NCBI GenBank assembly: GCA_947175495.1
Contig: CAMWNB010000015.1
Span: forward strand, 1-45,334
Length of the DNA stretch: 45,334 nucleotides
DNA from: an uncultured Porphyromonadaceae bacterium
GTDB taxonomy: Bacteria > Bacteroidota > Bacteroidia > Bacteroidales > Muribaculaceae
Direction of reading: 5' to 3'
Numbering within the stretch: position 1 is the stretch's first letter; every line of letters begins with the position of its first letter. Positions 27,514-42,116 of the stretch are shown here, piece by piece. The position numbers were made by a program, and so were the translations under genes. The notes beneath the pieces are model-generated. The model did not search any database. It was given only the letters and a program-made list of their open reading frames with translations, and was not told the origin of the DNA.

Positions 27514-27565
27514 GGGAAGTTAAGTTTATCGGGGCGACAGCGCGCAGTGCGCCTTTCCACCCCTA

Positions 27566-27573
27566 CAAAGTTA
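27566..27573 (-). promoter_or_regulatory. Bacteroidetes -7 box for the peptidoglycan-salvage operon
   Basis: On the minus strand this reads TAACTTTG, a perfect match to the Bacteroidetes TAnnTTTG consensus. It lies 53 bases upstream of the amidase ATG. No clear TTTG -33 element is present at the usual 19-21 bp distance, so the promoter may be weak or activator-dependent. Confidence 0.6.
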
Positions 27574-27677
27574 CAGCAAACCTCCCGATTAACACTAAAA
27601 AAACGCCGAAAAATGCCCCTCAACCCTCATTTTTAATATTCTTATACGATTTTTTAATCTATTTCACGCGCTCGGGC

Positions 27678-27715
27678 AAAAAAAATGGAGCGGCTACCAC
27701 CACGTCGCCGCTCCA
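27678..27715 (-). terminator. Terminator of the metallophosphoesterase gene
   Basis: A 9-bp stem TGGAGCGGC (27686-27694) pairs with 27707-27715. On the minus strand it is followed by eight T's (27685-27678). It lies 8 bases past the stop codon. Confidence 0.85.
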
Positions 27716-27722
27716 CATCAGC

Positions 27723-29300
27723 TCAGAACAATGCCGTTGTAAGCGCCGCCGGCCGGTGCAACACTTTGCTGTACACGCGGCCCTCGCGGTCCGTCACGCG
27801 GATAGTCACATCCGTATCCGGGCCCGAAGCCTTGGCCTTGAAAGCATGCATAGTGAACACCGGGCGCACCGTGCCGATCAGCTCACGGCCCTGTTCCACA
27901 TAGGGAATCGGACACGACAGCAGAAACAGCGGGTCCTTCGTGCGCACGCGCTCCACCGCCAGAGGCTTCTCTCCCTCGAGCATCTCCACAGTCCAGCCGG
28001 GACCATAGCCCCACACGTTCACGAGCACCTCGTCCGTCTTCTCGCGGCCGGGCAGAAACTCCGCCGCCACCTGCTCGTTGTCAAGCTCGACCATATTGAG
28101 GTCGTAGGCGCGGAACTGCGCTTCGCGCGGCATGCCTGTGCCCTTGTAATAGTCCGAGAATCCGTCGGCGGTGCGGCGCCACACAGCGTAGCCCGACGGC
28201 GTGCCGTCGCGGCATATGTTGTTGTCGTTGCCCAGATCCACGCGGGCGTTAAGCCACCACGAACCGCACACCGCGCCATAGTTGTTCTCATAAATCCGGC
28301 CGTCTTCCGTCTGCCCTGCGTAGCTCACATGTGTGTGACCCGAAATCACCCGCACATCCTCGAAGCCCTCAAGAGCGTCGATCAGCTCCTGCGCGTTCTC
28401 TATATAATAGGTGCGCGCGCCGCCCGGAAAGTAAAACAGCGGAGCGTGCATCGCCACCACCAGCGTCGCCGTCTTGTCCTGCACGAGCGCCAGGTCGCGG
28501 CGCAGCCAGTCAAGCTGATAGTCCGTCAGACGGTTCTTGTACACACACTCCCCGTCCGAGCTCAGCTGAGGGCTTCCGTCCACGATCTCGATATTGTCGA
28601 GCACCACGAAGTGCACACCGCCCTTGTTGAAACTGTAGTAGTTCGGCCCCACATGGCGGCGCCATTCCCCCGCGGCGTCGAAGTCGTTCTGCGCAGTGTT
28701 GTCATTGTCGTGGTTGCCCATCACGCTGTACAGCGGTGCACGCAGCTTGCGCAGGTCCGAGTAGGCCTCCGGCAGCCCGTAGCGGTTGGCCTTCCAGTAG
28801 CAGTCGTGCGCCTGGTCGCCGAGAGCTATCAGAAAAGGCTCGTACCCCTCGGCGCGCAACGAGTCCAGCGACGCGTTTATATCCGGCACCGTCGTCGTGT
28901 TGAAACAGTTCACCTCGCCATGGCGGTTGCTTATCTGATTGTCCGCGAACGCCACGAAAGCAAAGCGCCCGTCGTCCACCGGCCGCAGCACAAAGTCTGC
29001 CGTCTCGTCCTCGTCCGCCGGACAAGTCACCAGATGCCAGAACTGCGGGATATTCACATTGCTCGTCGCAGGCTCATAGCCCGACGGCGTCGACACATAC
29101 ACCAGACCCGCCGCCTTGTCCGTCGACATGGCATAGCGGCCCTGCGCGTCAGTCACCACGATTTCAAAGCCGTCACTCACAGGCACTCCCGCAATCGGGC
29201 GCCCCGCCGTATCTTTCACCGTGCCGCTCACCACGGCACCCCATGCAGCGCCCGCAGCCATTGCCGCAGCAGCCGCCAAAACAATTCTTCTGTTTTTCAT
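27723..29300 (-). CDS. Secreted calcineurin-like metallophosphoesterase
   Basis: This 525-residue protein has a signal peptide (about 1-22, ending GAAWGA). An N-terminal carboxypeptidase-regulatory-like beta domain (about 22-100) has GTVKDTAGRPIAGVPVSDG. The phosphoesterase core follows, with metal-binding motifs AFADNQ, ALGDQAHD, VMGNHDND, AMHAPLF and SGHTHVSYAG. A C-terminal domain typical of MetallophosN/C proteins (about 360-520) completes it. The first motif is D-N-Q rather than DxH, a variation seen in this subfamily. The start ATG at 29300 gives the signal peptide; an ATG at 29306 is also possible. It follows the left SusC/SusD pair but is separated by a terminator. The substrate is unknown. 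Confidence 0.9.
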   Translation of the reverse strand: MKNRRIVLAAAAAMAAGAAWGAVVSGTVKDTAGRPIAGVPVSDGFEIVVTDAQGRYAMSTDKAAGLVYVSTPSGYEPATSNVNIPQFWHLVTCPADEDETADFVLRPVDDGRFAFVAFADNQISNRHGEVNCFNTTTVPDINASLDSLRAEGYEPFLIALGDQAHDCYWKANRYGLPEAYSDLRKLRAPLYSVMGNHDNDNTAQNDFDAAGEWRRHVGPNYYSFNKGGVHFVVLDNIEIVDGSPQLSSDGECVYKNRLTDYQLDWLRRDLALVQDKTATLVVAMHAPLFYFPGGARTYYIENAQELIDALEGFEDVRVISGHTHVSYAGQTEDGRIYENNYGAVCGSWWLNARVDLGNDNNICRDGTPSGYAVWRRTADGFSDYYKGTGMPREAQFRAYDLNMVELDNEQVAAEFLPGREKTDEVLVNVWGYGPGWTVEMLEGEKPLAVERVRTKDPLFLLSCPIPYVEQGRELIGTVRPVFTMHAFKAKASGPDTDVTIRVTDREGRVYSKVLHRPAALTTALF

Positions 29301-29306
29301 GACCAT

Positions 29307-29338
29307 CAAAATTACAAAAAATCCCCCACCCTCGCAAA
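29307..29338 (-). promoter_or_regulatory. Possible promoter of the metallophosphoesterase
   Basis: On the minus strand, TTTG (29338-29335) and TAATTTTG (29314-29307) are separated by 20 bp, the Bacteroidetes arrangement. The box lies only 6 bases before the ATG, so the message would be nearly leaderless. This makes the call doubtful. Confidence 0.35.
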
Positions 29339-29362
29339 CAAAAAATCCCACCCCTTGCCATC

Positions 29363-29426: not shown

Positions 29427-31130
29427 TTATTTTGTCCAATAGGGGTTCTGCGTCAGTTCGTTGTTCAGACCAATCTGTCCCGAAGGAACGGGGAAGAGAT
29501 ATTCACGCTCGGAGAACGTGCGGGTCTGACCACCGGATGCATCGATGTAGCCGTCCACATTGGCAGGACGCTTATCGGCAGGAACGTTGCTCACGTTGGC
29601 GCCGATTGCGATGTCGGGATTCTTGTTGCTGTCGAGCTTGTCGAGCTGATGCCAGCGCACGAGGTCCCAGTAGCGCAGGTCCTTGTCGTAGATAAGCTCG
29701 CAGCGGCGGCAGCGGCGGATTTCCCACAGCAGGTTGCTCACGCCCATGTCGTTGTCGGGGTCAGTCATGCTGCTCATTCCGGCAACGGTGGTTGCAGGCA
29801 GACCGGCACGGGCAAACATCTTGTTGATGGTCTTGTCCACATCGGCATCGCTGAGCTCGTTCAGCTCGGCTCTGGCCTCCGCATAGTCCAGACCCACCAG
29901 AGCGCCCCAGTAAAGAGGTGCGCAGGTATAGTTCCAGATAGTCGTCGTGTAGGTGTAGTCCATTTCCGGATTCACAAATTTCTTCACGCCGTAGCCCGTC
30001 ACGGATGTCATCGGCATCGAGTTGGGACGCTTGTAGTCGTTGCCGGTGTAATAAACCATATCGTCGATGGTCTCGGCCAGACGGCCGTCGCGCACAGCCA
30101 GCAGAGCGGCAATCGAAACCTTGCCGTCGGCGTCGACAGTGCCGGCGTCGTTCGTGTCTTCCGAGGTCAGAGCCTTAGGCTTGCCGTCCTTGAAAAGATA
30201 GGAGTCGAAAGCATCCTTGGTGATGCCGCTGATAGGAGTGGAAGAGCTGGTGTAGTCCACCGTGGGATGCATGAACACATCTTTCTCGTACTCCTTCATG
30301 AAGATGATTTCGGGATTGGCGCTCAGAGCGGCGCGGAACGAGTTGTAAGTCGCCTGGTAGCTGTCGCCGATAGGATAGGCGTCAACCAGCGGACCGGCGC
30401 AGTTCACCACTTCCGCAAAGTACTTCTTGGCGCGGGCATCGTCGTTCTGGTGATAGCGGGCAAAAGAACCCTCGTAGAGACATGCCTCCGACTTCATCGC
30501 GGCGGCAAGATCGCGGCTGTAGGCATTCTTGCTGCTCTTGGCTGCAATGTGCTCCGTAGCATATGTAAGGTCCTCCAGAGCATAGTCCATCACGGTGTTG
30601 CGCGGCGTGCGCGGGCCGAACAGCTCGTCGCGGTCGCTCGGTTCAAGAGCCTTCGTCACCAGAGGCACATCGCCGTAGCAGCGCACCAGCTGATAGTACT
30701 GGTAGCCGCGGATCAGGCGGGCGATAGCCGTGAAGTTCTCTTTCTCCGTATCCGCCAGATTGCTGCCTTCCACACCCTCGATGATGAGGTTGGCGCGGCG
30801 GATGTAGATGTACGGATTGTCCCAGCTCGTCGACGAGGCGGGCACGTTGATGTTCTTCCAGTTGGCAAGCTGGTTGCCGCCCGTGGCCGAAGTCTGGTTG
30901 TCGTTGAGACCGGGGAAGTAGAACTCGCCGCCGCCCGAGCCGTTGCCGTAGCCCGAGAAAGTCTCGTAGAAATAATTGCACTGACCCTGCACGTTGCTCG
31001 GATTGCTCCAGTACTCCACGTTGGAAGTCTGCACCGACTGCGGGTAACGGTTGTCGTTCAGCAGGTCGTCGCAGCTCGAAAGCGTGGCGGCGACTACAGC
31101 GGCAACACTTAATATAATAGCTTTTTTCAT
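29427..31130 (-). CDS. SusD/RagB-family outer-membrane lipoprotein (left pair)
   Basis: This 567-residue surface lipoprotein has the lipobox LSSCDD with Cys20. SusD proteins cap the SusC barrel and bind the glycan or other ligand. Family features are the early NDNRYPQSVQT, the TPR-like IARLIRGYQYYQLVRCYGDVPLV motif, RTPRNTVMDYALEDL, and the C-terminal EIRRCRRCELIYDKDLRYWDLVRWHQLDKLD followed by EREYLFPVPSGQI. It starts 24 bp after its SusC partner. Because that SusC is now promoter-less, this gene is probably also silent in the present orientation. The ligand cannot be told from sequence. Confidence 0.95.
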   Translation of the reverse strand: MKKAIILSVAAVVAATLSSCDDLLNDNRYPQSVQTSNVEYWSNPSNVQGQCNYFYETFSGYGNGSGGGEFYFPGLNDNQTSATGGNQLANWKNINVPASSTSWDNPYIYIRRANLIIEGVEGSNLADTEKENFTAIARLIRGYQYYQLVRCYGDVPLVTKALEPSDRDELFGPRTPRNTVMDYALEDLTYATEHIAAKSSKNAYSRDLAAAMKSEACLYEGSFARYHQNDDARAKKYFAEVVNCAGPLVDAYPIGDSYQATYNSFRAALSANPEIIFMKEYEKDVFMHPTVDYTSSSTPISGITKDAFDSYLFKDGKPKALTSEDTNDAGTVDADGKVSIAALLAVRDGRLAETIDDMVYYTGNDYKRPNSMPMTSVTGYGVKKFVNPEMDYTYTTTIWNYTCAPLYWGALVGLDYAEARAELNELSDADVDKTINKMFARAGLPATTVAGMSSMTDPDNDMGVSNLLWEIRRCRRCELIYDKDLRYWDLVRWHQLDKLDSNKNPDIAIGANVSNVPADKRPANVDGYIDASGGQTRTFSEREYLFPVPSGQIGLNNELTQNPYWTK

Positions 31131-31154: not shown

Positions 31155-34100
31155 TTAGAATGTCACCTGGAGACCGAACGAATAGGTGCGCATCATGGGC
31201 ACCGTGCGGCCGAAGCCGCCATTGCCGTCGTTAGCCACACCGCTGTAGCTCTGGGTGATTTCAGGGTCCATGCGATACTTCTTCACGCCGTTGTAGAGGT
31301 CGGCCAGATTGTCGGCCGAGAAGTATATGCGGGCGCGCTGGATAAGAGCCTTCTTGGTGATGTCGGCAGGCAGAGTGTAGCCGAATGTCAGCGACTTCAG
31401 GCGCAGGTAGGCCAGGTTCATCAGATAGCGGCTCTGAGGATAGAAGTTGGCGGTGCCTCGGCCGATGTTGCTGATAGTGCCGCTCACGGCGCCGGAGCCG
31501 TTGACCATGTTCGGATACATGTTGCTCTGGTCCACTTCGTAGCCCTTCACCGTGTAGGTGTGCGTGGTCTCGTCCACGTCCACGATGTAGCGGTTGTAGC
31601 TCTGCTGGTGTTCGAAGGTGCCGAGGTTCGAGGCAGCCATAGGAATCATCAGCGAGCCGGTAGCCCAGTAGTTGCGCTTGCCCACGCCCTGGAAGAACAG
31701 GTCGAGGTCGAAACCCTTCCAGGCGCCGCCCAGACGGAAGCTGTACTCATAGCGGGGAAGAGCGTTACCGATCACCTTGAGGTCGCCGTGGTCGTCGATC
31801 GTGCCCTTGCCGCCGTCAATGCTGCCGCTGTTGTCGAGGTCCTTGTACTTCACGTCGCCGGGGCCGTAGTGGAAGCCGTTCAGGTTCTCAAGACCGCTCT
31901 GGTCGGCAACGCCGGGAGCATAGTTCCACGAGCCGTCGGCATTCTGGCCGGTGAAATCGCTTTCCTCAAAATAGCGGTCGGTTTCGAAGCCCCAGATGTC
32001 GCCGTAGTACTGGCCTGCGGTGTAGCTGCTCGATTCGGGTGTGAACGTGTAGAGCAGGTTGTTGGGGTTGTTCCAGGCGGTCACCTTAGTGCGGGCGTCC
32101 GACAGGTTGAAGTTGGCATACACGTCAGCGTCGCCGAAGCTGTGGTTCCAGCCGATGCTCAGTTCCCAGCCGCGGGTGCGCAGGCTGCCTGCGTTGGTGT
32201 AGGGAGCGCTGGTGCCGAGCACGGAGGGCAGCACCTCGCCGGGAGCGAGCATGTCCTTCGTGTCGCGCTGATACCAGTCAAAGCCCACGGTCAGTGCGTT
32301 GTTGAAGAAGCCGAGGTCTACGCCCACGTCGGTCGTGATCACGCGCTCCCAGGTAAGGCTGCTGCTCACCAGAGTAGGCATGCCGGCCTCGCTCACCTTG
32401 TTGCCGCCCTGCAGCCAGTGCACGTTGGCAGCGGTGATGGGAGTGATGGTCGAGATGAACATATTGTTGCCCACAGCCTCGTTGCCGATGTGACCGTAGC
32501 TCGCACGGATCTTACCGTTGCTCCACCACGAAGTCAGAGGCTTGAAGAAATTCTCTTCCGAGAAACGCCAGCCTGCCGACACAGAGGGGAAGAACGCCCA
32601 CTGGTCAGCCGCAGGGAAGCGGCTCGAGCCGTCGAAGCGGCCGTTCACCTCCAGCAGGTAGCGGCCCTTGTAGTCGTAGTTCACACGGCCGAAGAAACCT
32701 GCCGTAGCGCGGTTGGTCTTATCAGCACTCGTGCTGTAGGTCGTGCCGTCAGTAAGGTTGAGGCTGGGCAGCGAATTGTCGAGCAGGCCCGAACGGCGCA
32801 CATAGAACATGTCGTAGCGCTCGCGCTCGGCCGTGCCGCCCACCATCACCTTCAGATTGTGGTCCTGTGCGAAAGTCTTGTCGTAGGTGGCAAACACGTT
32901 GATCGTGTACAGGTCGTTGCGGTAGCTCTGGCGGGTCGACGTAGTGGCCGACTGCGAGGGAGCCGTGTACAGCAGCCAGGGCGAAGTCGTCCAGTTGTTC
33001 CACACAGTGGCGGGAGTGTAAGCCGAGTAATAGCTCATGTTGCGCACGGCATAGGTGAAATCGGCCTGCAGCGTGAGACCCTTGATGATTTCAGCCTGCA
33101 GCCAGCCCTGCAGACGGGTCTGGTTCACGCGCGTTTCATCCTGGTGAGCGCCGTCGCGCAGACCCATTTCATTGCGGAAATAGTAAGGCAGGCCGTCATC
33201 GGCGGTCTTGTAGCCGTAGGTCTCGAAGAACGACGGGAAGCGCCACATGTACTGATAAGAGTTGCGCGTTCCGTTAGGCTCCTTGTACGAGCGGTTGAAA
33301 TAGCCCAGACGGCCGCCGGCCTTCAGCCACGGGAAAATCTGAGTCTGCACCGATGCGTTCACCATGTGGCGGCTCAGCTTCTCGGGATTGTAGCGCATCA
33401 GACCCTCCTTAGTGTCATAGCCGTAGCTGATGCGGTAGGCCGTCTTGCCGCTTGTGCCCTCGAGGCTGATGTTGTGCTTCTGCGAGGGAGCGGTCTGGAA
33501 CATAGTCTTGCCCGTGTTCCAGTCGGCGTAGCGCACCCACTGGCCGTTGTCCAGGATGGCATAGTCGCCCACATTGTCCCAGCTCTCGAAAGGCTGCAGC
33601 TCAACGGCGCTCGTGTACTGCTTGCCGCCATGCTGCTGCTGCCATGCCTTGGCATAGGGGATCACATCCCAGTAGTTCATGCCGAACACCTCGTACGACG
33701 GGCTGTTCGCACCGCGCGCAAAAGCCTGGAGCGCAGTCTCAAGGTCAGTCACCGTGTTGGCGAAGTTGGGATAGTACGAAGCGTTGCTCCATGCAAAGTT
33801 GTTCACGTATTTCACACTCACGTGGTCCTTGCTCTCGCCGCCCTTCGTCGTGATGAGAATCACACCGAACGCTGCGCGCGTACCGTAAACGGCTGCCGAT
33901 GCGGCATCCTTCAGCACGCTGATGTCGGCGATATCTTCCGGGTTAAGGTTCGACAGGTCGTCCACAGGCACTCCGTCCACCACGATCAGAGGATTCGAAG
34001 TCTGGTTGTTCGACAGCGTGCCCGTGCCGCGGATTTTGATAGAAGGAGTAGAGTTGAAGTCACCGTTCGTAGTGGTGATGGTCAGACCGGGCACAGCGCC

Positions 34101-34415
34101 CTGCAGCGCACGCGTCACATCCTGCACGGGACGGCTGTCCATCACGCGGGCCACGTCCACCGTGGCCACGGCGCCCGTAAGGTTCGCCTTTTTCTGTGTG
34201 CCGTAGCCCACGACCACGAGCTGGTCGAGCTGCTCCGTAGTCGGCTGGAGATACACGGTCATGCCGTTGGCAGCCGCCATTTCCTCCGACTTATAGCCCA
34301 CATAGCTGATTACAAGCTTAGTTCCGGGGGCAACTTTGATCACGAAGTTGCCGTCGAAGTTGGTAGTCACTGCATTGGACTTGACGCCCTTTTGCATTAC
34401 ACTTGCTCCTATCAC
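31155..34415 (-). CDS. SusC/RagA TonB-dependent receptor, 5'-truncated (silent copy of the switch)
   Basis: The open frame from GTG 34415 gives 1086 residues. Homology to the right-hand SusC continues upstream through VTILDENNDP to base 34442 and then stops dead; the frame ends at a TAG at 34497-34499. The start codon, signal peptide and about 40 further residues are missing. The rest is intact: carboxypeptidase-like domain (IGASVMQKGVKSNAVTTNFDG), VVVGYGTQKK, plug (NPLIVVDGVPV, ISVLKDAASAAVYGTRAAFG) and a complete beta-barrel ending in FGLQVTF. The breakpoint is the recombination core shared with the leader cassettes. Joining a cassette there restores the frame to 1136 residues. It is therefore a reserve gene rather than a decayed one. 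Confidence 0.93.
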   Translation of the reverse strand: MIGASVMQKGVKSNAVTTNFDGNFVIKVAPGTKLVISYVGYKSEEMAAANGMTVYLQPTTEQLDQLVVVGYGTQKKANLTGAVATVDVARVMDSRPVQDVTRALQGAVPGLTITTTNGDFNSTPSIKIRGTGTLSNNQTSNPLIVVDGVPVDDLSNLNPEDIADISVLKDAASAAVYGTRAAFGVILITTKGGESKDHVSVKYVNNFAWSNASYYPNFANTVTDLETALQAFARGANSPSYEVFGMNYWDVIPYAKAWQQQHGGKQYTSAVELQPFESWDNVGDYAILDNGQWVRYADWNTGKTMFQTAPSQKHNISLEGTSGKTAYRISYGYDTKEGLMRYNPEKLSRHMVNASVQTQIFPWLKAGGRLGYFNRSYKEPNGTRNSYQYMWRFPSFFETYGYKTADDGLPYYFRNEMGLRDGAHQDETRVNQTRLQGWLQAEIIKGLTLQADFTYAVRNMSYYSAYTPATVWNNWTTSPWLLYTAPSQSATTSTRQSYRNDLYTINVFATYDKTFAQDHNLKVMVGGTAERERYDMFYVRRSGLLDNSLPSLNLTDGTTYSTSADKTNRATAGFFGRVNYDYKGRYLLEVNGRFDGSSRFPAADQWAFFPSVSAGWRFSEENFFKPLTSWWSNGKIRASYGHIGNEAVGNNMFISTITPITAANVHWLQGGNKVSEAGMPTLVSSSLTWERVITTDVGVDLGFFNNALTVGFDWYQRDTKDMLAPGEVLPSVLGTSAPYTNAGSLRTRGWELSIGWNHSFGDADVYANFNLSDARTKVTAWNNPNNLLYTFTPESSSYTAGQYYGDIWGFETDRYFEESDFTGQNADGSWNYAPGVADQSGLENLNGFHYGPGDVKYKDLDNSGSIDGGKGTIDDHGDLKVIGNALPRYEYSFRLGGAWKGFDLDLFFQGVGKRNYWATGSLMIPMAASNLGTFEHQQSYNRYIVDVDETTHTYTVKGYEVDQSNMYPNMVNGSGAVSGTISNIGRGTANFYPQSRYLMNLAYLRLKSLTFGYTLPADITKKALIQRARIYFSADNLADLYNGVKKYRMDPEITQSYSGVANDGNGGFGRTVPMMRTYSFGLQVTF

Positions 34416-34425
34416 CGGGTCATTG

Positions 34426-34442
34426 TTCTCGTCGAGAATCGT
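34426..34442 (-). repeat. Recombination core at the silent SusC
   Basis: Read on the minus strand, this is ACGATTCTCGACGAGAA. The same 17 bp lie on the plus strand at 36495-36511, and the first 14 (15 with the preceding C) at the right SusC. It contains the near-palindrome TTCTCG-A-CGAGAA. Homology between the two SusC genes begins at this point. Confidence 0.85.
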
Positions 34443-34482
34443 GACCTTCTGTTGTAATATATTATATGTGTGGAAAAGCGCC

Positions 34483-34532
34483 CGGCGCGTCCGCTTCTAT
34501 GTGTCTGATTATGAAGGGCTGCGGACGCGCCG
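34483..34532 (-). terminator. Hairpin between recombinase and silent SusC
   Basis: A perfect 12-bp stem CGGCGCGTCCGC (34483-34494) pairs with 34521-34532 around a 26-base loop. On the minus strand it lies just past the recombinase stop and is followed by a short TTTT. It would limit read-through from the recombinase gene into the leaderless SusC. Because it is inside the invertible segment, it would always sit next to whichever SusC is off. Confidence 0.55.
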
Positions 34533-34566
34533 TGGCGCGGGGCGGCGTGGCGGGCCGGGTGTGGGG

Positions 34567-35814
34567 TCAGATGGTGTGTGTCTGCGGGAATGTCTGCATG
34601 ATGAGGTCGGCTTTGAGGCTGTCGTCGATGTTGCGGTAGCGGGCGAAGGATTTGCTGCCGTCCTTGTGGCCGGACATTGAGCTGATGAGGCTGGGGTCCT
34701 TGGCGGTGCGGTAGAGGTTGCCGATGAATGTGCGGCGTGCCATGTGGCTGGAGGCTACGTCGCATATGCGGCGGTGTCGCTCGGATAGTGTGACGGGGTC
34801 GAGCACGGTGACTATGCGTGTGATGCCGCAGCGTTCGAGGGCTGCCCGGATGTAGCGGTTGTAGCGTGCGGGGGTGAGGCATGGAAGAAGGCGTCCGCGG
34901 GGGTCGCGCCCGGCGAGGCTGCGGACGATTGCGAGCGCGAGCGGATGCAATGGCACGCGCACTGCCTCGGGGCGTGCGTTGCGTGTCTTCTGGGCGACGT
35001 ATTCGAGTGTGCCTTCGTGCACGCAGTGGGGGCGCAGGCGCTGCAGGTCGGAGAGGCGCACGCCGGTGAGGCACTGGAACACGAACACATGGCGCTGCTC
35101 GGAGAGGCGGGGAGCGGCCGACATGTCGGCATCGGAGAGGGCGCGCAGTTCGGCGGCGGAGAGGAAGAACGGGGTGCCGTAGAGCTCGCCCTGCGATGCG
35201 ATGGGCCGCGGTTCGAAGCCGAGGCTTGCCGCGGCATAGCGCAGGACGGTGCGGAGGCGGGACACGATGGAGCATAGGGTGTTGTGGCCTCGCGGGCGGG
35301 TGCCGTTGCCGGTAGTGTGTTCTTCGGAAAGAAACCTCACGAAGCGGTCGACCATGGCAGCGTTCCAGCATTCGGGCTGGGCGGGGTGGCCGCAGCTGCG
35401 CTCGAAGCGTGCAAGCATGCGTGCGAGTGTGGCGTACTGGCGCGAGCGCGATTCCGAGAGGCTCCGGGTGGAGGCGTAGGCCTCGGCATAGGCGGAGAGC
35501 CCGCGGCCGAGGCATGAGGCGGAGAGTCCGCAGCGTTCGCGCACATATGCGGCTGTGAGCATTTCCCGCGGGGTGGCTGCGCACAGTTCGTAGATTTTTG
35601 TCTCGAGGGCTGCGAGCCGTCCGGCTGCCCGCGAGCATGCGAGCGTGTCGTGGCCTGCTGCCGAGATTGTGCCGTCGGCGTGCCACCATGAGTCGGGCAC
35701 ATGGATGCCGGACTTGAGCCGGTGTTGCCTGTAGTGGTCGATTGTGAGCCGCAGCATCACTTGCCGGCGTCCGGCATAGTCGCGTTTCCTGGATAGCGAT
35801 CGGGTGATTTTCAT
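34567..35814 (-). CDS. Tyrosine site-specific recombinase (putative DNA invertase)
   Basis: This 415-residue phage-integrase-type recombinase has an Arm-DNA-binding-like N-terminus (about 1-95), a SAM-like core-binding domain (about 105-200) and the catalytic domain (about 215-410). The full catalytic set is visible: Arg253 in TGVRLSDL, Lys276 in AQKTRN, His357 and Arg360 in SSHMARRTF, His383 in MSGHKDGSK, and nucleophile Tyr393 in FARYRNID. It resembles Bacteroides integrases that flip phase-variable loci. It lies inside the segment bounded by the inverted cores, so inversion would reverse its own orientation. No other phage or transposon genes are nearby, favouring a dedicated invertase. 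It probably acts on the 17-bp core. Confidence 0.93.
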   Translation of the reverse strand: MKITRSLSRKRDYAGRRQVMLRLTIDHYRQHRLKSGIHVPDSWWHADGTISAAGHDTLACSRAAGRLAALETKIYELCAATPREMLTAAYVRERCGLSASCLGRGLSAYAEAYASTRSLSESRSRQYATLARMLARFERSCGHPAQPECWNAAMVDRFVRFLSEEHTTGNGTRPRGHNTLCSIVSRLRTVLRYAAASLGFEPRPIASQGELYGTPFFLSAAELRALSDADMSAAPRLSEQRHVFVFQCLTGVRLSDLQRLRPHCVHEGTLEYVAQKTRNARPEAVRVPLHPLALAIVRSLAGRDPRGRLLPCLTPARYNRYIRAALERCGITRIVTVLDPVTLSERHRRICDVASSHMARRTFIGNLYRTAKDPSLISSMSGHKDGSKSFARYRNIDDSLKADLIMQTFPQTHTI

Positions 35815-35865
35815 AAGTCGGAGATGAATTGGTTTATTTTGTGTGTGCCGTGTGCGGCGGCCTCT

Positions 35866-35898
35866 GTCTGCAAAATGTCTGCAAGATATTTTTGCAGA
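35866..35898. repeat. Three TCTGCAA motifs, two direct and one inverted
   Basis: GTCTGCAA occurs at 35866-35873 and 35877-35884, and the inverted form TTGCAGA at 35892-35898. TCTGCAAAA (35867-35875) is the exact inverse of 35890-35898. The cluster is about 52 bases upstream of the recombinase start. It may be its operator or an accessory binding site for recombination. Confidence 0.6.
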
Positions 35899-35946
35899 TT
35901 TAAGTCATTTTTTCTTTCAAAATGTGAATATATCCGAAATTATTGT

Positions 35947-35954
35947 TAACTTTG
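35947..35954 (+). promoter_or_regulatory. Promoter-like box 0, TAACTTTG
   Basis: This is a perfect match to TAnnTTTG, preceded by an AT-rich tract with TTTCAAAA like those before the two SusC promoters. It may be the remnant of a third cassette promoter. No gene directly follows. Confidence 0.4.
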
Positions 35955-36160
35955 CAATTGCTAAACCTAATATTCGCTTATTTTTCACCTTCTTATGCAA
36001 TCTGATTTCAGCTTAAACGCCTGTGTGGCTGCGACGCATGTTGCGGCATATGGGTCGTGCCGGCGCCCTGTTTTGTCCGGAACGGGTGTTTTTGCAATGA
36101 GCCCGGTGTTTAGTATAGTTAAAATACTTAAAATTATTTTTTCATTTCAAAATATTATTT

Positions 36161-36168
36161 TAAATTTG
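36161..36168 (+). promoter_or_regulatory. Promoter -7 box of leader cassette 1, TAAATTTG
   Basis: This matches TAnnTTTG within an AT-rich stretch (36115-36168) that aligns with the cassette 2 promoter, including GTTAAAATAC and TTTCAAAA. The ATG lies about 200 bases downstream, implying a long 5' leader. Confidence 0.65.
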
Positions 36169-36290
36169 GGTCGTGTTACTCCGCACAATTGCGGCGTGAC
36201 CAACGAGCCATATACTGATGCTCTGAGAAAGGACGCATTAATCAAGTTACTAATACCATACACAAAGACAAAACAGACACTCATCCTATT

Positions 36291-36511
36291 CCTTAAATCT
36301 TAGACCCGAAGAGCCGGAGGCCCTCCGGTTCTGACCAACCAAAAACGACAAAACCACCAATAACTATTAATATGAGAAAACATCTGTTTGTGACCCTGCT
36401 TCTGACGTGCGGCCTGCCGTTCGGCTACAGCTTCTCAGCCTACGCCGAGCCCGTTCCGCAGACTCAGAACCAGAACGTCGCCACAATCACCGGTACGATT
36501 CTCGACGAGAA
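36291..36511 (+). repeat. Leader cassette 1 (direct repeat copy 1)
   Basis: This 221-bp stretch carries a leader hairpin (36311-36331, stem GAGCCGGAG), the ATG at 36372, the SusC signal peptide and the recombination core at its right end. It is nearly identical to 36761-36978, displaced by exactly 470 bp, with only a few mismatches. Similarity continues more weakly upstream to the promoter. Confidence 0.93.
36495..36511 (+). repeat. Recombination core in cassette 1
   Basis: ACGATTCTCGACGAGAA is identical over 17 bp, in inverted orientation, to 34426-34442. Family-like coding ends here. It includes the exact TTCTCG-A-CGAGAA near-palindrome. Confidence 0.85.
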
Positions 36512-36627
36512 AAGCAACATCCCCGACACCGGCGAAACAGCGACTTTCAGCTGCACGGCAAGCGGACCGGCAGCGCAAACAGTTGTTAAAATACCTGAAA
36601 AAGTTTTTCCATTTCAAAAATATATTT

Positions 36628-36635
36628 TAACTTTG
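36628..36635 (+). promoter_or_regulatory. Promoter -7 box of leader cassette 2, TAACTTTG (active SusC)
   Basis: This is a perfect TAnnTTTG box, with a T-rich element (GTTTTT, 36603-36608) about 20 bp upstream in the -33 position. The SusC ATG is about 200 bases downstream. It lies to the right of the cassette 1 core, so inversion at core 1 would leave it in place. Confidence 0.7.
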
Positions 36636-36760
36636 AATCGCACAACTCACACTAAGAGCGGTGCGAACATCAAGCCAAGCCAAAAGGCGCTGAAAAACAG
36701 ACATTTAATTAAATCATCAATACCATTCGCAAAACAAAAACAACAGACATTCATCTCACA

Positions 36761-36978
36761 CCTTAAATCTTAGACCCGAAGAGCCGGAGGCCCTCCGGTT
36801 CTGACCAACCAAAAACGACAAAACCACCAATAACTATTAATATGAGAAAACATCTGTTTGTGACCCTGCTTCTGACGTGCGGCCTGCCGTTCGGCTACAG
36901 CTTCTCAGCCTACGCCGAGCCCGTTCCGCAGACTCAGAGCCAGAACGTCGCCACAATCACCGGCACGATTCTCGACGA
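36761..36978 (+). repeat. Leader cassette 2 (direct repeat copy 2)
   Basis: This repeats cassette 1 with a 470-bp offset and contains the same leader hairpin at 36781-36801. It carries the start of the complete SusC. The core here (36964-36978) reads CACGATTCTCGACGA and differs from cassette 1 just after this point. Confidence 0.93.
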
Positions 36979-39900
36979 AAACAACGAGCCAGTGATAGGT
37001 GCAAGTGTAATGCAAAAAGGCGTAAAAGCCAACGCAGTGACCACCAATTTCGATGGCAACTTCGTCATCAAAGTAGCCCCGGGCACCAAGCTCGTAATCA
37101 GTTATGTAGGCTATAAATCCGAAGAGATGGCCGCCGCCAACGGCATGACCGTCTACCTCCAGCCCACCACCGAGCAGCTCGACCAGCTCGTAGTCGTAGG
37201 CTACGGCACACAGAAAAAAGCCAACCTCACAGGCGCCGTCGCCACCGTCGACGTTGCCCGCGTAATGGACAGCCGTCCCGTACAGGACGTCACCAAAGCC
37301 CTTCAGGGCGCCGTACCCGGCCTCACCATCACAACAGGCAACGGCGGCATCAACTCCGACGCCACAATCCGAATCCGCGGCGTCGGAACACTCACCAACG
37401 GACAAGCATCCGACCCCCTCATCGTCGTTGACGGTGTGCCCGTCGACAACCTCAACTTCGTCGACCCCGACGACATCGCCGACATCTCAGTCCTCAAAGA
37501 CGCAGCTTCCAGCGCCGTTTACGGCGCACGCGCAGCATTCGGCGTCGTCCTCATCACCACCAAGGGAGCCAACAAAAAAGACAAAGTCAGCGTCTCCTAC
37601 AGCAACAACTTCGCATGGAGCGCACCCACGACAATGCCCGACTTCGCCTACGCAGCCGACGACGTCCTCGGATCTCTGCAGGCCTACTACCGCAACTCCG
37701 GCACCAACAAGACCGTCGTAGGCGACATGTACTATGCCGACATCCTCCCCTACCTCGAAACATGGCAGCAGCAGCACGGAGGCAAACGCTACGACAGCTA
37801 CGTGCAGCTCCAGCCATACCAGGATGAAAACAACATCGGCGATTACCGCGTATTCGACGACGGCTCATGGTTCCGCTACGCCGACTGGGACATCAACAAG
37901 ACCCTCTACAACAGCGCAGCACCCTCACAGAAGCACAACATCAGCCTCGAAGGCACAAGCGGCAAAACACAATACCGCCTCTCCTTCGGCTACGACAGCA
38001 AGCAGAGCCTCATGCGCTACAACCCCGAGAAGATGCACCGCTACATGGCCAACGCAAATATCTCCACCGAGATCACAAGCTGGCTCAAGGCAGGCACACG
38101 ACTCAGCTTCACTCAGCGCGAGTACACCGAACCCAACACCCCCAGCAACTTCCTCCAGTACGCATGGCGATGGGCTCCGTTCGTGTCTGCATGGGGCTAC
38201 ATTCCCGACCCCACAACAGGCGAGGAAGTGCCCTTCCGCAACACACTTAGCGAGCGACTCCTCGCTCCCACCGACAAGACCGTAAGCCGCCAGTCGCGCC
38301 TCCAGGCATGGGCACAGGCCGAAATCATCAAAGGACTCACCCTCCAGGCCGACTTCACATACGACTTCCGCACCGTCGACACCCACGCATCATGGCTCAC
38401 ACAGACCACATGGGACTGGGGCGGCCAGGCATGGGCCACATACACATGGCCCTCTGCAGGACAGAGCCGCACACGTGCCTACCAGACCAAGAACGACATG
38501 GACCGCTGGACAACCAACGTCTTCGCAACTTACGCCAAGACTTTCGCCCAGGACCACAACCTCAAGGTAATGGCCGGCTTCTCCGCCGAACAGATGCGCT
38601 ACGACAACCTCTCCGCAGGCCGCTACGGCCTCGTTGACTTCAACCTCCCCGAAATCAACCTCACCAACGGCAGCGAAGCATCCGACTACATCGTCACCGG
38701 CGGCTCCGGCCACCGCGCAACCGCAGGCTTCTTCGGACGCGTCAACTACGACTACAAAGGACGCTACCTCTTCGAAGCAAACGGACGCTACGACGGCTCC
38801 ACACGATTCCCCGCACACAAGCAATGGGCATTCTTCCCCTCATTCTCCGCAGGATGGCGCTTCTCCGAAGAAGACTTCTTCAAGCCCGTCACCAACTGGT
38901 GGAGCAACGGTAAACTCCGCGCAAGCTACGGCCACCTCGGCAACGAAAACCTCGCCGACAACCAGTTCATCTCCACCATCACACTCGGCAACAAGAACGT
39001 AAACTGGCTCAACGCCAGCGGAACACCCATCAACGGCGCATCCATGCCCACACTCGTAAGCTCCACGCTCACTTGGGAACGCGTCATCACAACCGACGTC
39101 GGCATCGATCTCGGATTCTTCAACAACAGCCTCAACGTCACATTCGACTGGTACCAGCGCGACACCAAAGACATGCTCGCCCCGGGCATGCCCCTGCCCT
39201 CGACCCTCGGCGCATCATCGCCCCTCGAGAACGCAGGCAACATGCGCACCAACGGCTGGGAACTCGCCGTCAGCTACAACAAGAGCTTCGGCGACTGGGA
39301 CATCTGGGCCACAGCAACCATCGGCGACGCACGAAGCAAAGTCACCAAATGGGCCAGCAACGAACACAAGACCCTATACTCATGGTACTACGGCGCCACA
39401 GGCTACCGCTTCTACGAAGGACAGACCTTCGGCGACATCTGGGGCTTCGAGTACGACCGCTACTTCGAAGAATCCGACTTCTCCGGCAAAGTCCTCGACC
39501 CCGAAACCGGCGAATGGACCGGCGCATGGAACTACGCCAACGGCGTAGCCAACCAGGACGCCCTCGACTTCGGCAACTTCCACTTCGGCCCCGGCGACGT
39601 CAAGTTCAAAGACCTCAACGGCGACGGAGTCATCAACAACGGCGACCCCGACATGGTCGACGAAAACGGCAACAAGATTCCCGTCGGAACAATGCGCAAC
39701 CACGGCGACCTCAAAGTCATCGGCAACGCACTTCCACGATATGAGTACGGACTCCGCATCGGCGCCGCTTGGAAAGGATTCGACATCGACCTCTTCTTCC
39801 AGGGCATCGGCAAGCGTAACATGTGGCAGGTATCCAACTTCGTGATGCCCTTCGCACAGGCCAACTCCGGACTCTTCACCCACCAGCTCAGCTACAACTC

Positions 39901-40312
39901 CTACATCGTCGACGACAACAACCAGATCATCGGCTACAACGTAGACCAGAGCAACGCATACCCCAACCTCACATCCGGCGACTTCGCTTACCACTCAACC
40001 ATGCGAAACACCTGCAACCAGGGCATCAACAACTGGACCATCAACGACCGTTACCTCGTAAACATGGCCTACCTCCGCATGAAAAACATCACCGTCGGAT
40101 ACACAATCCCCGCATCCATCACCACCAAAGCCTACATCCAGAAGGCACGCGTCTACTTCAGCACCGAGAACCCCTTCTTCATCTACAACGGCGCAGGCAA
40201 ATACGGAATCGATCCCGAGATGGAAGGCGGCGTAAGCGAAGGCTACGCAGGATTCGGACGCAACAACGCCATGATGAAGAGCTACTCCTTCGGTCTTCAG
40301 GTAACTTTCTAA
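36842..40312 (+). CDS. SusC/RagA TonB-dependent receptor, complete and expressed copy
   Basis: This 1156-residue outer-membrane importer has a signal peptide (about 1-25, ending AYAEP). A carboxypeptidase-like domain follows (TITGTILDENNEPVIGASVMQKG), then VVVGYGTQKK, the plug with DPLIVVDGVPV and ISVLKDAASSAVYGARAAFG, and the beta-barrel to the terminal SFGLQVTF. SusC proteins take up oligomers held by SusD, powered by TonB. Residues 51 to about 160 are almost identical in protein to the silent left SusC although many codons differ; the plug end and barrel diverge, so the two should import different ligands. Expression is from cassette 2, inside whose coding part a recombination core lies at residues 41-46. 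Confidence 0.97.
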   Translation: MRKHLFVTLLLTCGLPFGYSFSAYAEPVPQTQSQNVATITGTILDENNEPVIGASVMQKGVKANAVTTNFDGNFVIKVAPGTKLVISYVGYKSEEMAAANGMTVYLQPTTEQLDQLVVVGYGTQKKANLTGAVATVDVARVMDSRPVQDVTKALQGAVPGLTITTGNGGINSDATIRIRGVGTLTNGQASDPLIVVDGVPVDNLNFVDPDDIADISVLKDAASSAVYGARAAFGVVLITTKGANKKDKVSVSYSNNFAWSAPTTMPDFAYAADDVLGSLQAYYRNSGTNKTVVGDMYYADILPYLETWQQQHGGKRYDSYVQLQPYQDENNIGDYRVFDDGSWFRYADWDINKTLYNSAAPSQKHNISLEGTSGKTQYRLSFGYDSKQSLMRYNPEKMHRYMANANISTEITSWLKAGTRLSFTQREYTEPNTPSNFLQYAWRWAPFVSAWGYIPDPTTGEEVPFRNTLSERLLAPTDKTVSRQSRLQAWAQAEIIKGLTLQADFTYDFRTVDTHASWLTQTTWDWGGQAWATYTWPSAGQSRTRAYQTKNDMDRWTTNVFATYAKTFAQDHNLKVMAGFSAEQMRYDNLSAGRYGLVDFNLPEINLTNGSEASDYIVTGGSGHRATAGFFGRVNYDYKGRYLFEANGRYDGSTRFPAHKQWAFFPSFSAGWRFSEEDFFKPVTNWWSNGKLRASYGHLGNENLADNQFISTITLGNKNVNWLNASGTPINGASMPTLVSSTLTWERVITTDVGIDLGFFNNSLNVTFDWYQRDTKDMLAPGMPLPSTLGASSPLENAGNMRTNGWELAVSYNKSFGDWDIWATATIGDARSKVTKWASNEHKTLYSWYYGATGYRFYEGQTFGDIWGFEYDRYFEESDFSGKVLDPETGEWTGAWNYANGVANQDALDFGNFHFGPGDVKFKDLNGDGVINNGDPDMVDENGNKIPVGTMRNHGDLKVIGNALPRYEYGLRIGAAWKGFDIDLFFQGIGKRNMWQVSNFVMPFAQANSGLFTHQLSYNSYIVDDNNQIIGYNVDQSNAYPNLTSGDFAYHSTMRNTCNQGINNWTINDRYLVNMAYLRMKNITVGYTIPASITTKAYIQKARVYFSTENPFFIYNGAGKYGIDPEMEGGVSEGYAGFGRNNAMMKSYSFGLQVTF
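36964..36978 (+). repeat. Recombination core in the complete SusC
   Basis: CACGATTCTCGACGA is shared, in inverted orientation, with 34429-34443 at the silent SusC. Beyond it, homology between the two SusC genes continues, with GTGATAGG and GCAAGTGTAATGCAAAA conserved. Confidence 0.8.
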
Positions 40313-40331
40313 AACACAACACGACATCAAT

Positions 40332-42116
40332 ATGAAAAAACATATAATCCTCGGTCTTATCGCAGGCTCCGCTGTAGCACTATCCAGCTGCAACGACTTC
40401 CTCGACGACAACCGCTATCCCCTGGACAAGCAGACCGACAACCCCGCCTACTGGACAAGCAGCCAGAACGTACAGGCACAAATCAACACCCTCTACGGCA
40501 ACTTCACCGGCTACGGCAACGGAGCATCATGGGTCAACGACTTCTACTACCAGTCACTCTCCGACGACCAGTGCTCACACATCTACTCCGGCGAAGGAAC
40601 AGTCTTCGCACGCTGGACTTACGAAGCAGTCCCCAACTCCAACAGCGTTTGGGACGCAAGCTACATCGAAGTTCGCCGTTGCAACTACATCATCAACAAC
40701 TGCAACATCGACAACGAAGCCCAGAACGCACACTACATCGCACAGGCACGACTCATCCGAGCCATGCAGTACTACGAACTCGTTCGCGCACTCGGCGACG
40801 TGCCCCTCGTCACCGAAGTCCTCGACCCGAACTCACCCGAGCTCTACGGCGAGCGCACTCCACGCAACACCGTCATGGACTTCGTCCTCGAAGACCTCAA
40901 CTTCGCAGTCGACAACCTCCTCACAAAGAGCAACAAACTCGAAATCAGCGTCGACATGGCAAACGCCATGAAATCCGAAATCTGTCTCTTTGAGGCCGCA
41001 TACGCCAAATACCACCAGAACGACACCGAACGTGCCAAAAAGTTCTACACCGAGGTAATCAACGCATGCAAATCAATCATGGACAGCAACTACTCCATCT
41101 GCGACGACTACCAGTCAATCTACAACTCCGTATTCACCGCCGACACATCCATCGGAACCGTCAGCCTCCTCGACAACCCCGAAATCATCTTCATGAAGGG
41201 CTATCAGACAGGCTCCCTCTGCCACTCCGCAGCAGCGTTCCTCAGCGCCGAGACACCCATCGCAGGCATGACGAAGGACGCATTCGACGCATACCTCTTC
41301 AAAGACGCCAAGCCCCTCGCAACCACTTCCCTCGACAAGAGCGACCTCCCCGAGCCGATCCTCGACCCCGAAGGAAATGTCACAGGCTTCGACATCTCCA
41401 ACGCACTCGAAGTACGCGACGGACGCCTCGCAAAGACCATCGACCCCAAGCTCGCCTTCGGTTCCAAAGTCAGCTTCCAGCGTCCCAACTCCTACAGCAT
41501 CACTTCCACAACAGGCTACACCATCTGCAAATATGTTAACCCCAAAATCAACACACAGCAGACCGTAACAGCCAACAACAACTACACCTGCGCCCCCATC
41601 TACTGGCTCGCATACACCTACTGCGACTACCTTGAGGCACGCGCCGAACTCGACCAGATCGACAACGCCGACATCGCCATGTGCGTCAAGCCCCTCTGGG
41701 AACGTGCCGGAATCGACACATCCAATCTCAGCAAGGCCTACCTCGAAAACATGGCCGACCCCGCCAACAACATGGGCGTCAGCAGTCTCATCTGGGAAAT
41801 CCGCCGTCTCCGCCGCTGCGAACTCATGTTCGACCGCAACCACCGCTACTGGGACCTCGTACGCTGGCACAAGCTCGACCTCCTCGACACCAACCAGCAC
41901 CCCAACATCGCACTCGGCGCAAACATCAGCAACGCACCCGCCGACCTCGTCGTAGGCGTATTCACATCCAACGGCTACATCAACGGAGCAGCCAGCACCG
42001 CCGGCACATCCGTCCGCACCTTCACCGAACGTGAATACCTCCAGCCCCTCGGCTCGACAATCATCAACCTCTACAACGACAAGGGCCTCGAACTCCCGCA
42101 GAACCCCCACTGGTAA
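40332..42116 (+). CDS. SusD/RagB-family outer-membrane lipoprotein (right pair)
   Basis: This 594-residue surface lipoprotein has the lipobox ALSSCND with Cys20. It is a paralogue of the left SusD, sharing DNRYPLDKQT, the IAQARLIRAMQYYELVRALGDVPLV motif, ERTPRNTVMDFVLEDL, and EIRRLRRCELMFDRNHRYWDLVRWHKLDLLD. The ligand-facing middle differs and is longer, with extra residues around 270-300. It follows its SusC by 19 bp and is expected to be expressed with it in the present orientation. The ligand is unknown. Confidence 0.95.
   Translation: MKKHIILGLIAGSAVALSSCNDFLDDNRYPLDKQTDNPAYWTSSQNVQAQINTLYGNFTGYGNGASWVNDFYYQSLSDDQCSHIYSGEGTVFARWTYEAVPNSNSVWDASYIEVRRCNYIINNCNIDNEAQNAHYIAQARLIRAMQYYELVRALGDVPLVTEVLDPNSPELYGERTPRNTVMDFVLEDLNFAVDNLLTKSNKLEISVDMANAMKSEICLFEAAYAKYHQNDTERAKKFYTEVINACKSIMDSNYSICDDYQSIYNSVFTADTSIGTVSLLDNPEIIFMKGYQTGSLCHSAAAFLSAETPIAGMTKDAFDAYLFKDAKPLATTSLDKSDLPEPILDPEGNVTGFDISNALEVRDGRLAKTIDPKLAFGSKVSFQRPNSYSITSTTGYTICKYVNPKINTQQTVTANNNYTCAPIYWLAYTYCDYLEARAELDQIDNADIAMCVKPLWERAGIDTSNLSKAYLENMADPANNMGVSSLIWEIRRLRRCELMFDRNHRYWDLVRWHKLDLLDTNQHPNIALGANISNAPADLVVGVFTSNGYINGAASTAGTSVRTFTEREYLQPLGSTIINLYNDKGLELPQNPHW

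Follow-up and report, generated by a model that had tools for sequence, protein, structure and literature searches.

Within a 45,334-bp window of DNA from an uncultured Porphyromonadaceae bacterium (the whole stretch analyzed, contig C15 of assembly GCA_947175495.1, 2.34 Mb in 90 contigs, hereafter G000), we identified a locus that, judged from its sequence, is very probably a site-specific leader-inversion switch for SusC surface receptors. A 415-aa tyrosine recombinase (REC; 34567-35814, minus strand) is flanked by two divergent SusC/SusD pairs and is directed toward the left SusC, a headless receptor body with no signal peptide (SusC_L; 31155-34442, minus strand; TIGR04056, E 5e-237), whose partner lipoprotein is SusD_L (29427-31130, minus strand; PF07980/PF14322). 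The right SusC is complete (SusC_R; 36842-40312, plus strand; TIGR04056, E 1.4e-248) and is paired with SusD_R (40332-42116, plus strand; PF07980/PF14322). An earlier note on this DNA had proposed an invertible SusC leader with its own tyrosine recombinase between two such pairs; the pairs and the complete recombinase are present as described, and the central idea is supported by comparison with relatives, two of which (G040 and G008) have the same layout.

Core repeats and leader boundaries

SusC_L begins with a 17-bp core, ACGATTCTCGACGAGAA (core L; 34426-34442, minus strand), which is a putative recombination site. The core is matched in inverted orientation, on the plus strand, at 36495-36511 (core R1, 17/17) and, within SusC_R, at 36965-36981 (core R2, 16/17); the left and third sites share 15 contiguous bases (36964-36978). 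The earlier note had placed these three copies inside coding sequence and the left SusC as cut exactly at the first of them, and our coordinates agree: the core translates as Thr-Ile-Leu-Asp-Glu, codons 42-46 of the SusC precursor and the start of its N-terminal domain, so that a join between leader and body stays in frame. A start for SusC_L further upstream was rejected, as no ATG, GTG or TTG is present in the short frame that stays open from the last stop to core L. We also rejected the possibility that the 17-bp match is merely a conserved SusC motif. Among 22 matches to the SusC model in G000, three did not align at the core motif, scores of 17 and 16/17 belong to the two SusCs of the locus, and the other 17 reach only 5-13/17. 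Allowing up to two mismatches, the core is found at six places in the genome, three of them at the locus and three elsewhere (two mismatches each).

The core also marks the boundaries of two blocks of homology. Inverted homology between SusC_L and SusC_R (81% over 436 nt) begins at the core, and direct homology between two leaders (97% over 240 nt; 36272-36511 versus 36742-36981, plus strand, spacing 470) stops at it. The earlier note had missed this tandem duplication of a whole leader, 5' untranslated region (UTR) and signal peptide included. The first copy comprises a 5' UTR and a spare leader, leader 1, with start codon, signal peptide and the first 46 codons up to core R1 (36372-36511, plus strand), so named as the putative parking site of this leader; the second comprises a 5' UTR and leader 2, which is fused to SusC_R. 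At E ≤ 0.001, the G000 genome contains no match to the leader DNA beyond these two. Ahead of each leader lies an AT-rich promoter region with a box resembling TAnnTTTG (36161-36168, plus strand, for leader 1) or identical to it (36628-36635, plus strand, for leader 2), which we take to be the -7 promoter consensus. The 5' UTR of both leaders further contains a strong GC hairpin, identical between the copies (36310-36332 and 36780-36802); the leader 1 UTR fold beats 200 of 200 shuffles (z -3.9), and Rfam, with two matches in all, both sub-threshold, offered for the hairpin only one resembling group II intron D5.

Computed inversions and predicted states

Scripted inversion of 34426-36511 (L x R1) places leader 1 in frame on SusC_L, giving a protein of 1136 aa, leaves SusC_R unchanged at 1156 aa and turns REC rightward. 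Inversion of 34426-36981 (L x R2) again yields an in-frame SusC_L of 1136 aa, while SusC_R becomes headless. The earlier note's claim that inversion would move promoter, leader and signal peptide from one receptor to the other therefore stands in part: SusC_L does gain a leader in frame, but there are two leaders, L x R1 leaves SusC_R its own, and only L x R2 takes the leader away from SusC_R. Because L x R1 arms SusC_L while SusC_R keeps leader 2, this reaction would act as an ON/OFF switch for SusC_L.

In the mechanism that we propose, the segment from core L to core R1 carries leader 1 (promoter, 5' UTR and signal peptide) and REC between two sets of arm-like sites, and REC would be an arm-binding-type integrase in chromosomal use that exchanges strands within the core. 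The assembled state would then have SusC_R ON through leader 2, SusC_L OFF and leader 1 parked at R1. Inversion by L x R1 would turn both receptors ON, L x R2 would turn SusC_L ON and SusC_R OFF, and deletion between R1 and R2 would leave a single leader, the number found in G040. In relatives, sites of this kind would serve more numerous and more distant headless SusCs. The sequences themselves show the sites, their boundaries, an in-frame product, a conserved layout and constraint on the headless gene; that in the G000 species REC acts on the core sites, binds the arms and flips the segment, and which mode would dominate, we infer.

Conservation of the layout in relatives

Our searches took in 49 genomes of the genus and a sample of 397 from the family. 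Within the genus, the two recombinases most similar to REC, those of G040 (about 53-54% identical) and G008 (49%), lie in the same arrangement: one or more leaders come first, then the recombinase, then a headless SusC that is cut where SusC_L is cut. The single leader of G040 is joined to its SusC_R ortholog (86%), and a further SusC there is headless. In G008, a spare leader is accompanied by another that a contig end interrupts, and a second headless SusC lies on the same contig (C29), some 17 kb away from the spare leader. A headless SusC of G039 (C44), with paired repeat and core, has a glycoside hydrolase 97 gene where the recombinase would be. The earlier note had held that truncation at an unrelated point in relatives would speak against a switch; all four further headless SusCs found in the genus are truncated at the codons where SusC_L is.

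The leader core is identical to the core of the headless gene beside the recombinase in each of the three genomes (17/17 in G000, ACGATTCTCGACGAGAAC twice in G040, TTCTCGATGAAAACA twice in G008). Three genomes with no recombinase match (G006, G003 and G028) have two related leader-bearing SusCs on one contig that are 1-2 bases apart at the core. This contrast is a modest one, since core R2 of G000 also differs by one base, as does the core of the second G008 headless gene from that of the adjacent gene. In G006, orthologs of both receptors of the window (81% and about 71%) are divergently oriented and each has a leader, and G014 has a SusC_L ortholog with a leader.

In one of the 25 loci that the family search added (L160:3180-7425, from G093, a genome of a different genus), a headless SusC/SusD pair comes after a related recombinase; no leader match was found beside this recombinase. 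The contig of a further locus, in G128 (L161), stops soon after the recombinase. In Candidatus Sodaliphilus limicaballi (L067, 195-9047), a recombinase of the family lies between two SusCs, each with its own, unlike leader. In G017 (L204, L205 and L206), contig ends cut several SusCs somewhere in the leader or the N-terminal region, which suggests repeated N-termini and perhaps another shuffling system; the best recombinase match there reaches only E 4.5e-4. A lone C-terminal recombinase fragment, 58% identical, lies in a 103-aa open frame of G011:C25 (L046:8085-8312), with no SusC match in the 18 kb fetched around it.

Constraint on the headless genes

SusC_L is intact across 1095 codons. Estimates of dN/dS, made by the Nei-Gojobori method with our own script and rough in that several dS values exceed 1, are 0.13 against G006 and 0.12 against G014 for SusC_L, 0.11 for the G008 headless gene against G039 C112, and 0.13 for the G039 headless gene against G017 C2. 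These four headless-gene pairs (0.11-0.13) compare with 0.08-0.20 for six other SusC pairs, and REC itself gives 0.37 between G000 and G040. No relaxed selection is visible on the headless SusCs, although a very recent loss would escape dN/dS.

A contig-end trace in G039

The first base of G039 contig C112, which is 94% identical to the G008 headless SusC, is also the first base of the core. Contig C156 of the same assembly carries a leader-bearing SusC, and the first base separating its body from that of C112 is base 56. We fetched 74 short G039 contigs and dropped nine that read N, which together with C44 and C156 left 67 contigs and 134 ends; 17 of these ends share at least 25 nt elsewhere, and the maximum of 55 nt is reached by four. 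A longest share of exactly 55 nt is the pattern expected from a k=55 assembly graph. The start of C112 suggests two upstream contexts meeting at the core, and that of C156 a leader with more than one continuation, so that the contig ends indirectly behave as if both junctions were in the sample. Other causes can end a contig, and the end of C156, though not that of C112, could reflect a parked spare leader.

The recombinase and its arm-like repeats

REC is intact and belongs to the Pfam Phage_integrase family (PF00589). Residues R253, K276, H357, R360, H383 and Y393, presumably the tyrosine recombinase catalytic set, are all present; H357 is nearly invariant and the other five are invariant across 28 sequences. 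An AlphaFold model made with 28 sequences (mean pLDDT 87.5, pTM 0.66) has an N-terminal three-stranded sheet (strands 2-11, 17-26 and 29-39) followed by a helix (57-80), and Foldseek matches to it include full-length lambda Int (1z1b, query TM 0.50) and the Tn1549 integrase; these results concern fold and not DNA binding. A sequence search of the PDB gave no match, a scan of viral contigs gave four pattern matches with no relative among them, and no mobile-element gene was found among the neighboring genes given to Pfam. Between REC and SusC_L lies a perfect 12-bp inverted repeat, 26 nt apart (34483-34532), with TTTT six bases 3' on the minus strand; it was absent from the terminator scan output but may limit read-through from REC into the headless gene.

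Pairs of GCAGACA repeats lie on both sides of the recombinase in all three species with REC at such a locus (G000, G040 and G008). In G000 one pair (GCAGACA-N5-GCAGACA; 34579-34597, minus strand) falls within the 3' end of the REC gene and 136 nt ahead of core L, and the other (GCAGACA-N4-GCAGACA; 35865-35882, minus strand) lies upstream of the REC start. A pair is likewise found 34-136 nt upstream of the core at each of the five headless genes encountered in the genus (one each in G000, G040 and G039, two in G008). The second G008 gene has its own pair 50 nt ahead of the core, with one mismatch (GCAGACG-N4-GCAGACA; L284:12545-12562). Near these five cores the pairs qualify by motif and position as candidate arm-type repeats.

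Genome-wide, GCAGACA-N3-6-GCAGACA occurs in G000 at the two sites flanking REC and as one overlapping pair on C11, and the reversed-pattern control gave none. The pair pattern is present in 12 of the 49 genus genomes, and the eight beyond the four switch genomes have no SusC or REC match within the fetched loci. In a general test for direct repeats beside the recombinase, which covered 114 of 122 loci (some being the same place twice), the G040 and G008 pairs were equaled in no shuffle. The top-scoring repeat was GCAGACA in three genomes only (G000, G040 and G008), and the idea that it is general to the recombinase family was rejected. Pairs of a different motif, GTAGTC, with the same 11-bp spacing flank the recombinase in G093 and G128. 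In G028:C23, a GCAGACA-N4-GCAGACA pair (L285:5958-5975) lies about 50 nt from a tRNA-Leu gene (L285:6029-6114), with no SusC or REC match in the 16 kb fetched around it; this pair is possibly the attachment site of a related integrase.

More tentatively, a mobile-element-type integrase with arm sites may move a promoter-signal-peptide cassette among several headless SusCs, some of them distant, whose arm-plus-core sequences would serve as docking sites, the spare leader adding a second receptor while the first is kept. This broader reading is founded on the second G008 docking site about 17 kb away, the G039 docking site without an adjoining recombinase, and the G093 recombinase and headless SusC with a different 11-bp-spaced pair.

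Alternative explanations

Several observations weigh against a leader-inversion switch. No change of junction was seen in G000, the one genome of its species that was covered. G039 has headless and leader-bearing SusCs with no recombinase match in its assembly, which also has no contig for the other halves of its two junctions. REC has diverged far more than its neighbor, with about 53-54% identity between G000 and G040 versus 86% for SusC_R. Pfam did not call an arm-binding domain in REC, and its Arm-DNA-bind_5 match in the G093 relative is weak and below cut-off (E 0.02). The downstream repeat pair of G000 is spaced by 12 bp and not by the 11 bp found otherwise; in the general repeat test the G000 pair scored 11 and was equaled in 1 of 60 shuffles, and a few relatives that lack a SusC of this kind carry other repeats with equal or higher scores (L107 16, L062 13, L134 13). 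The headless SusC of G093 is cut about 13 codons further into the gene and not at the same codons. Named genomes yielded 266 recombinase relatives, and among the 80 best of these, some of whose loci are cut by contig ends, only two (L047 and L048, which are G040 and G008 again) adjoin a headless SusC; six have any SusC match and 74 have none, and the notion that the recombinase family as a whole is tied to such switches was rejected.

These numbers bear on the possibility that the locus is a static scar, in which the recombinase, itself a mobile element or brought in by one, disrupted SusC_L a single time; leader 1 would be a dead duplicate and nothing would flip. REC is of the integrase type and has phage relatives, the 74 SusC-free loci of its relatives fit such a history, and so does the lack of a flipped form in the single G000 assembly. 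A scar is nevertheless very improbable, given a SusC_L intact over 1095 codons with dN/dS of 0.12-0.13, identical codons cut in five headless genes of four species, a leader core that differs from genome to genome yet, in all three genomes concerned, equals that of the headless gene alongside, and a G039 contig that starts at the core. REC might instead be chiefly a small mobile integrase gene, with SusC N-termini for its attachment sites, the arm pairs for its ends and inversion as a side effect. The pairs do flank REC as direct repeats, the motif recurs near tRNA-Leu in G028, and acquisition of an arm-binding domain is described as a mark of mobile-element recombinases (PMC8138268). Arm pairs, however, also stand at headless SusCs without an adjoining recombinase (G039 C44 and the second site of G008 C29), and inverted cores would lead to inversion and not excision, which makes a mainly mobile role improbable.

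The either/or toggle is a more serious contender, if still an unlikely one. Here L x R2 would be the working reaction, swapping one leader between the receptors, and leader 1 would be a by-product of past recombination. G040, with one leader, one leader-bearing and one headless SusC, fits this description, and L x R2 likewise yields an in-frame SusC_L. Against it, the perfect core match in G000 is between L and R1, R2 matching at 16/17, and G008 too has a spare leader that matches the core of its adjacent headless gene. Ordinary homologous recombination between repeated SusC N-termini, with REC as a bystander, could draw on the 81% identity of SusC_L and SusC_R over 436 nt; yet the spare leader and the headless gene match over just 17 bp, an identity too short for efficient RecA exchange, and a recombinase is kept at the site in three species, so that this account is extremely improbable. 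We accordingly favor the leader-inversion switch.

Neighboring features

Two genes lie 3' of SusD_L on the same strand (24574-29351), encoding a calcineurin-like phosphoesterase and a 979-aa protein with a Golvesin C-terminal domain, and possibly belong to the switched operon. A tRNA scan of the window returned no tRNA genes.

Significance and comparison with known systems

SusC/SusD receptors decide which nutrients are imported by a gut Bacteroidales cell. If the proposed switch is real, silent receptor bodies that share one exported N-terminus would let a clone vary its diet and its surface cheaply, and the locus would be a candidate case of an arm-site integrase serving as a chromosomal invertase. 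The reading also predicts that an arm pair plus core upstream of a headless SusC flags silent receptors which annotation may call pseudogenes.

The SusC/SusD (ragA/ragB) shufflons of Bacteroides fragilis with Tsr0667 were reportedly described by Nakayama-Imaohji in 2009. Tsr0667 is presented as causing shufflon-type inversions at three SusC/SusD clusters (PMC4747536, PMC11852207) and as a master invertase of these and nine other regions (PMC4747536). Our locus resembles those shufflons in that inverted repeats at the susC 5' end link two SusC/SusD pairs, and inversion, which in B. fragilis changes the pair that is expressed, is predicted to do so here. The SusC shufflon repeats are described as overlapping the start codon, downstream of an invertible promoter (region EE; PMC5729914), whereas the present core lies 41 codons inside the gene, at codons 42-46, so that the signal peptide would move as well. 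The recombinase here is inside the segment, in place of one master invertase, and a spare leader and arm-like pairs are further differences, as far as other papers' descriptions of that system go. Inversions within or near SusC/SusD genes appear in gut surveys (PMC10939037, PMC11892184) and are treated as established in reviews (PMC12632263, PMC11868660); the surveys, as far as consulted, give no leader, arm and recombinase anatomy of the present type, and we found no published description of this arrangement among the open-licence papers searched.

In the hsdS shufflons of B. fragilis, the shuffled genes are described as carrying inverted repeats in coding sequence and as directly adjoining or enclosing the gene of a tyrosine integrase (PMC3090145, PMC5729914), so that neither intragenic sites nor a local recombinase is by itself a novelty. 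Those systems swap target-recognition domains, whereas here a receptor promoter and signal peptide would be exchanged. The invertible promoters reported for Bacteroides capsule loci and the BT1927 S-layer (PMC12548429) share with our locus the short inverted repeats and, by prediction, ON/OFF control of surface molecules; the segment here is not a promoter-only intergenic one and adds signal-peptide coding sequence and REC. Like the IntCTnDOT subgroup and lambda Int, REC has a predicted N-terminal three-stranded sheet and helix, fold matches to lambda Int and Tn1549 Int, and paired arm-like direct repeats near the core; unlike them, it stands at a chromosomal inversion locus with inverted cores and without a mobile-element gene among its Pfam-scanned neighbors. 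The principle of switching is therefore already known, and what would set this locus apart is an intragenic core that moves the signal peptide, a recombinase within the segment, a spare leader and arm-like sites.

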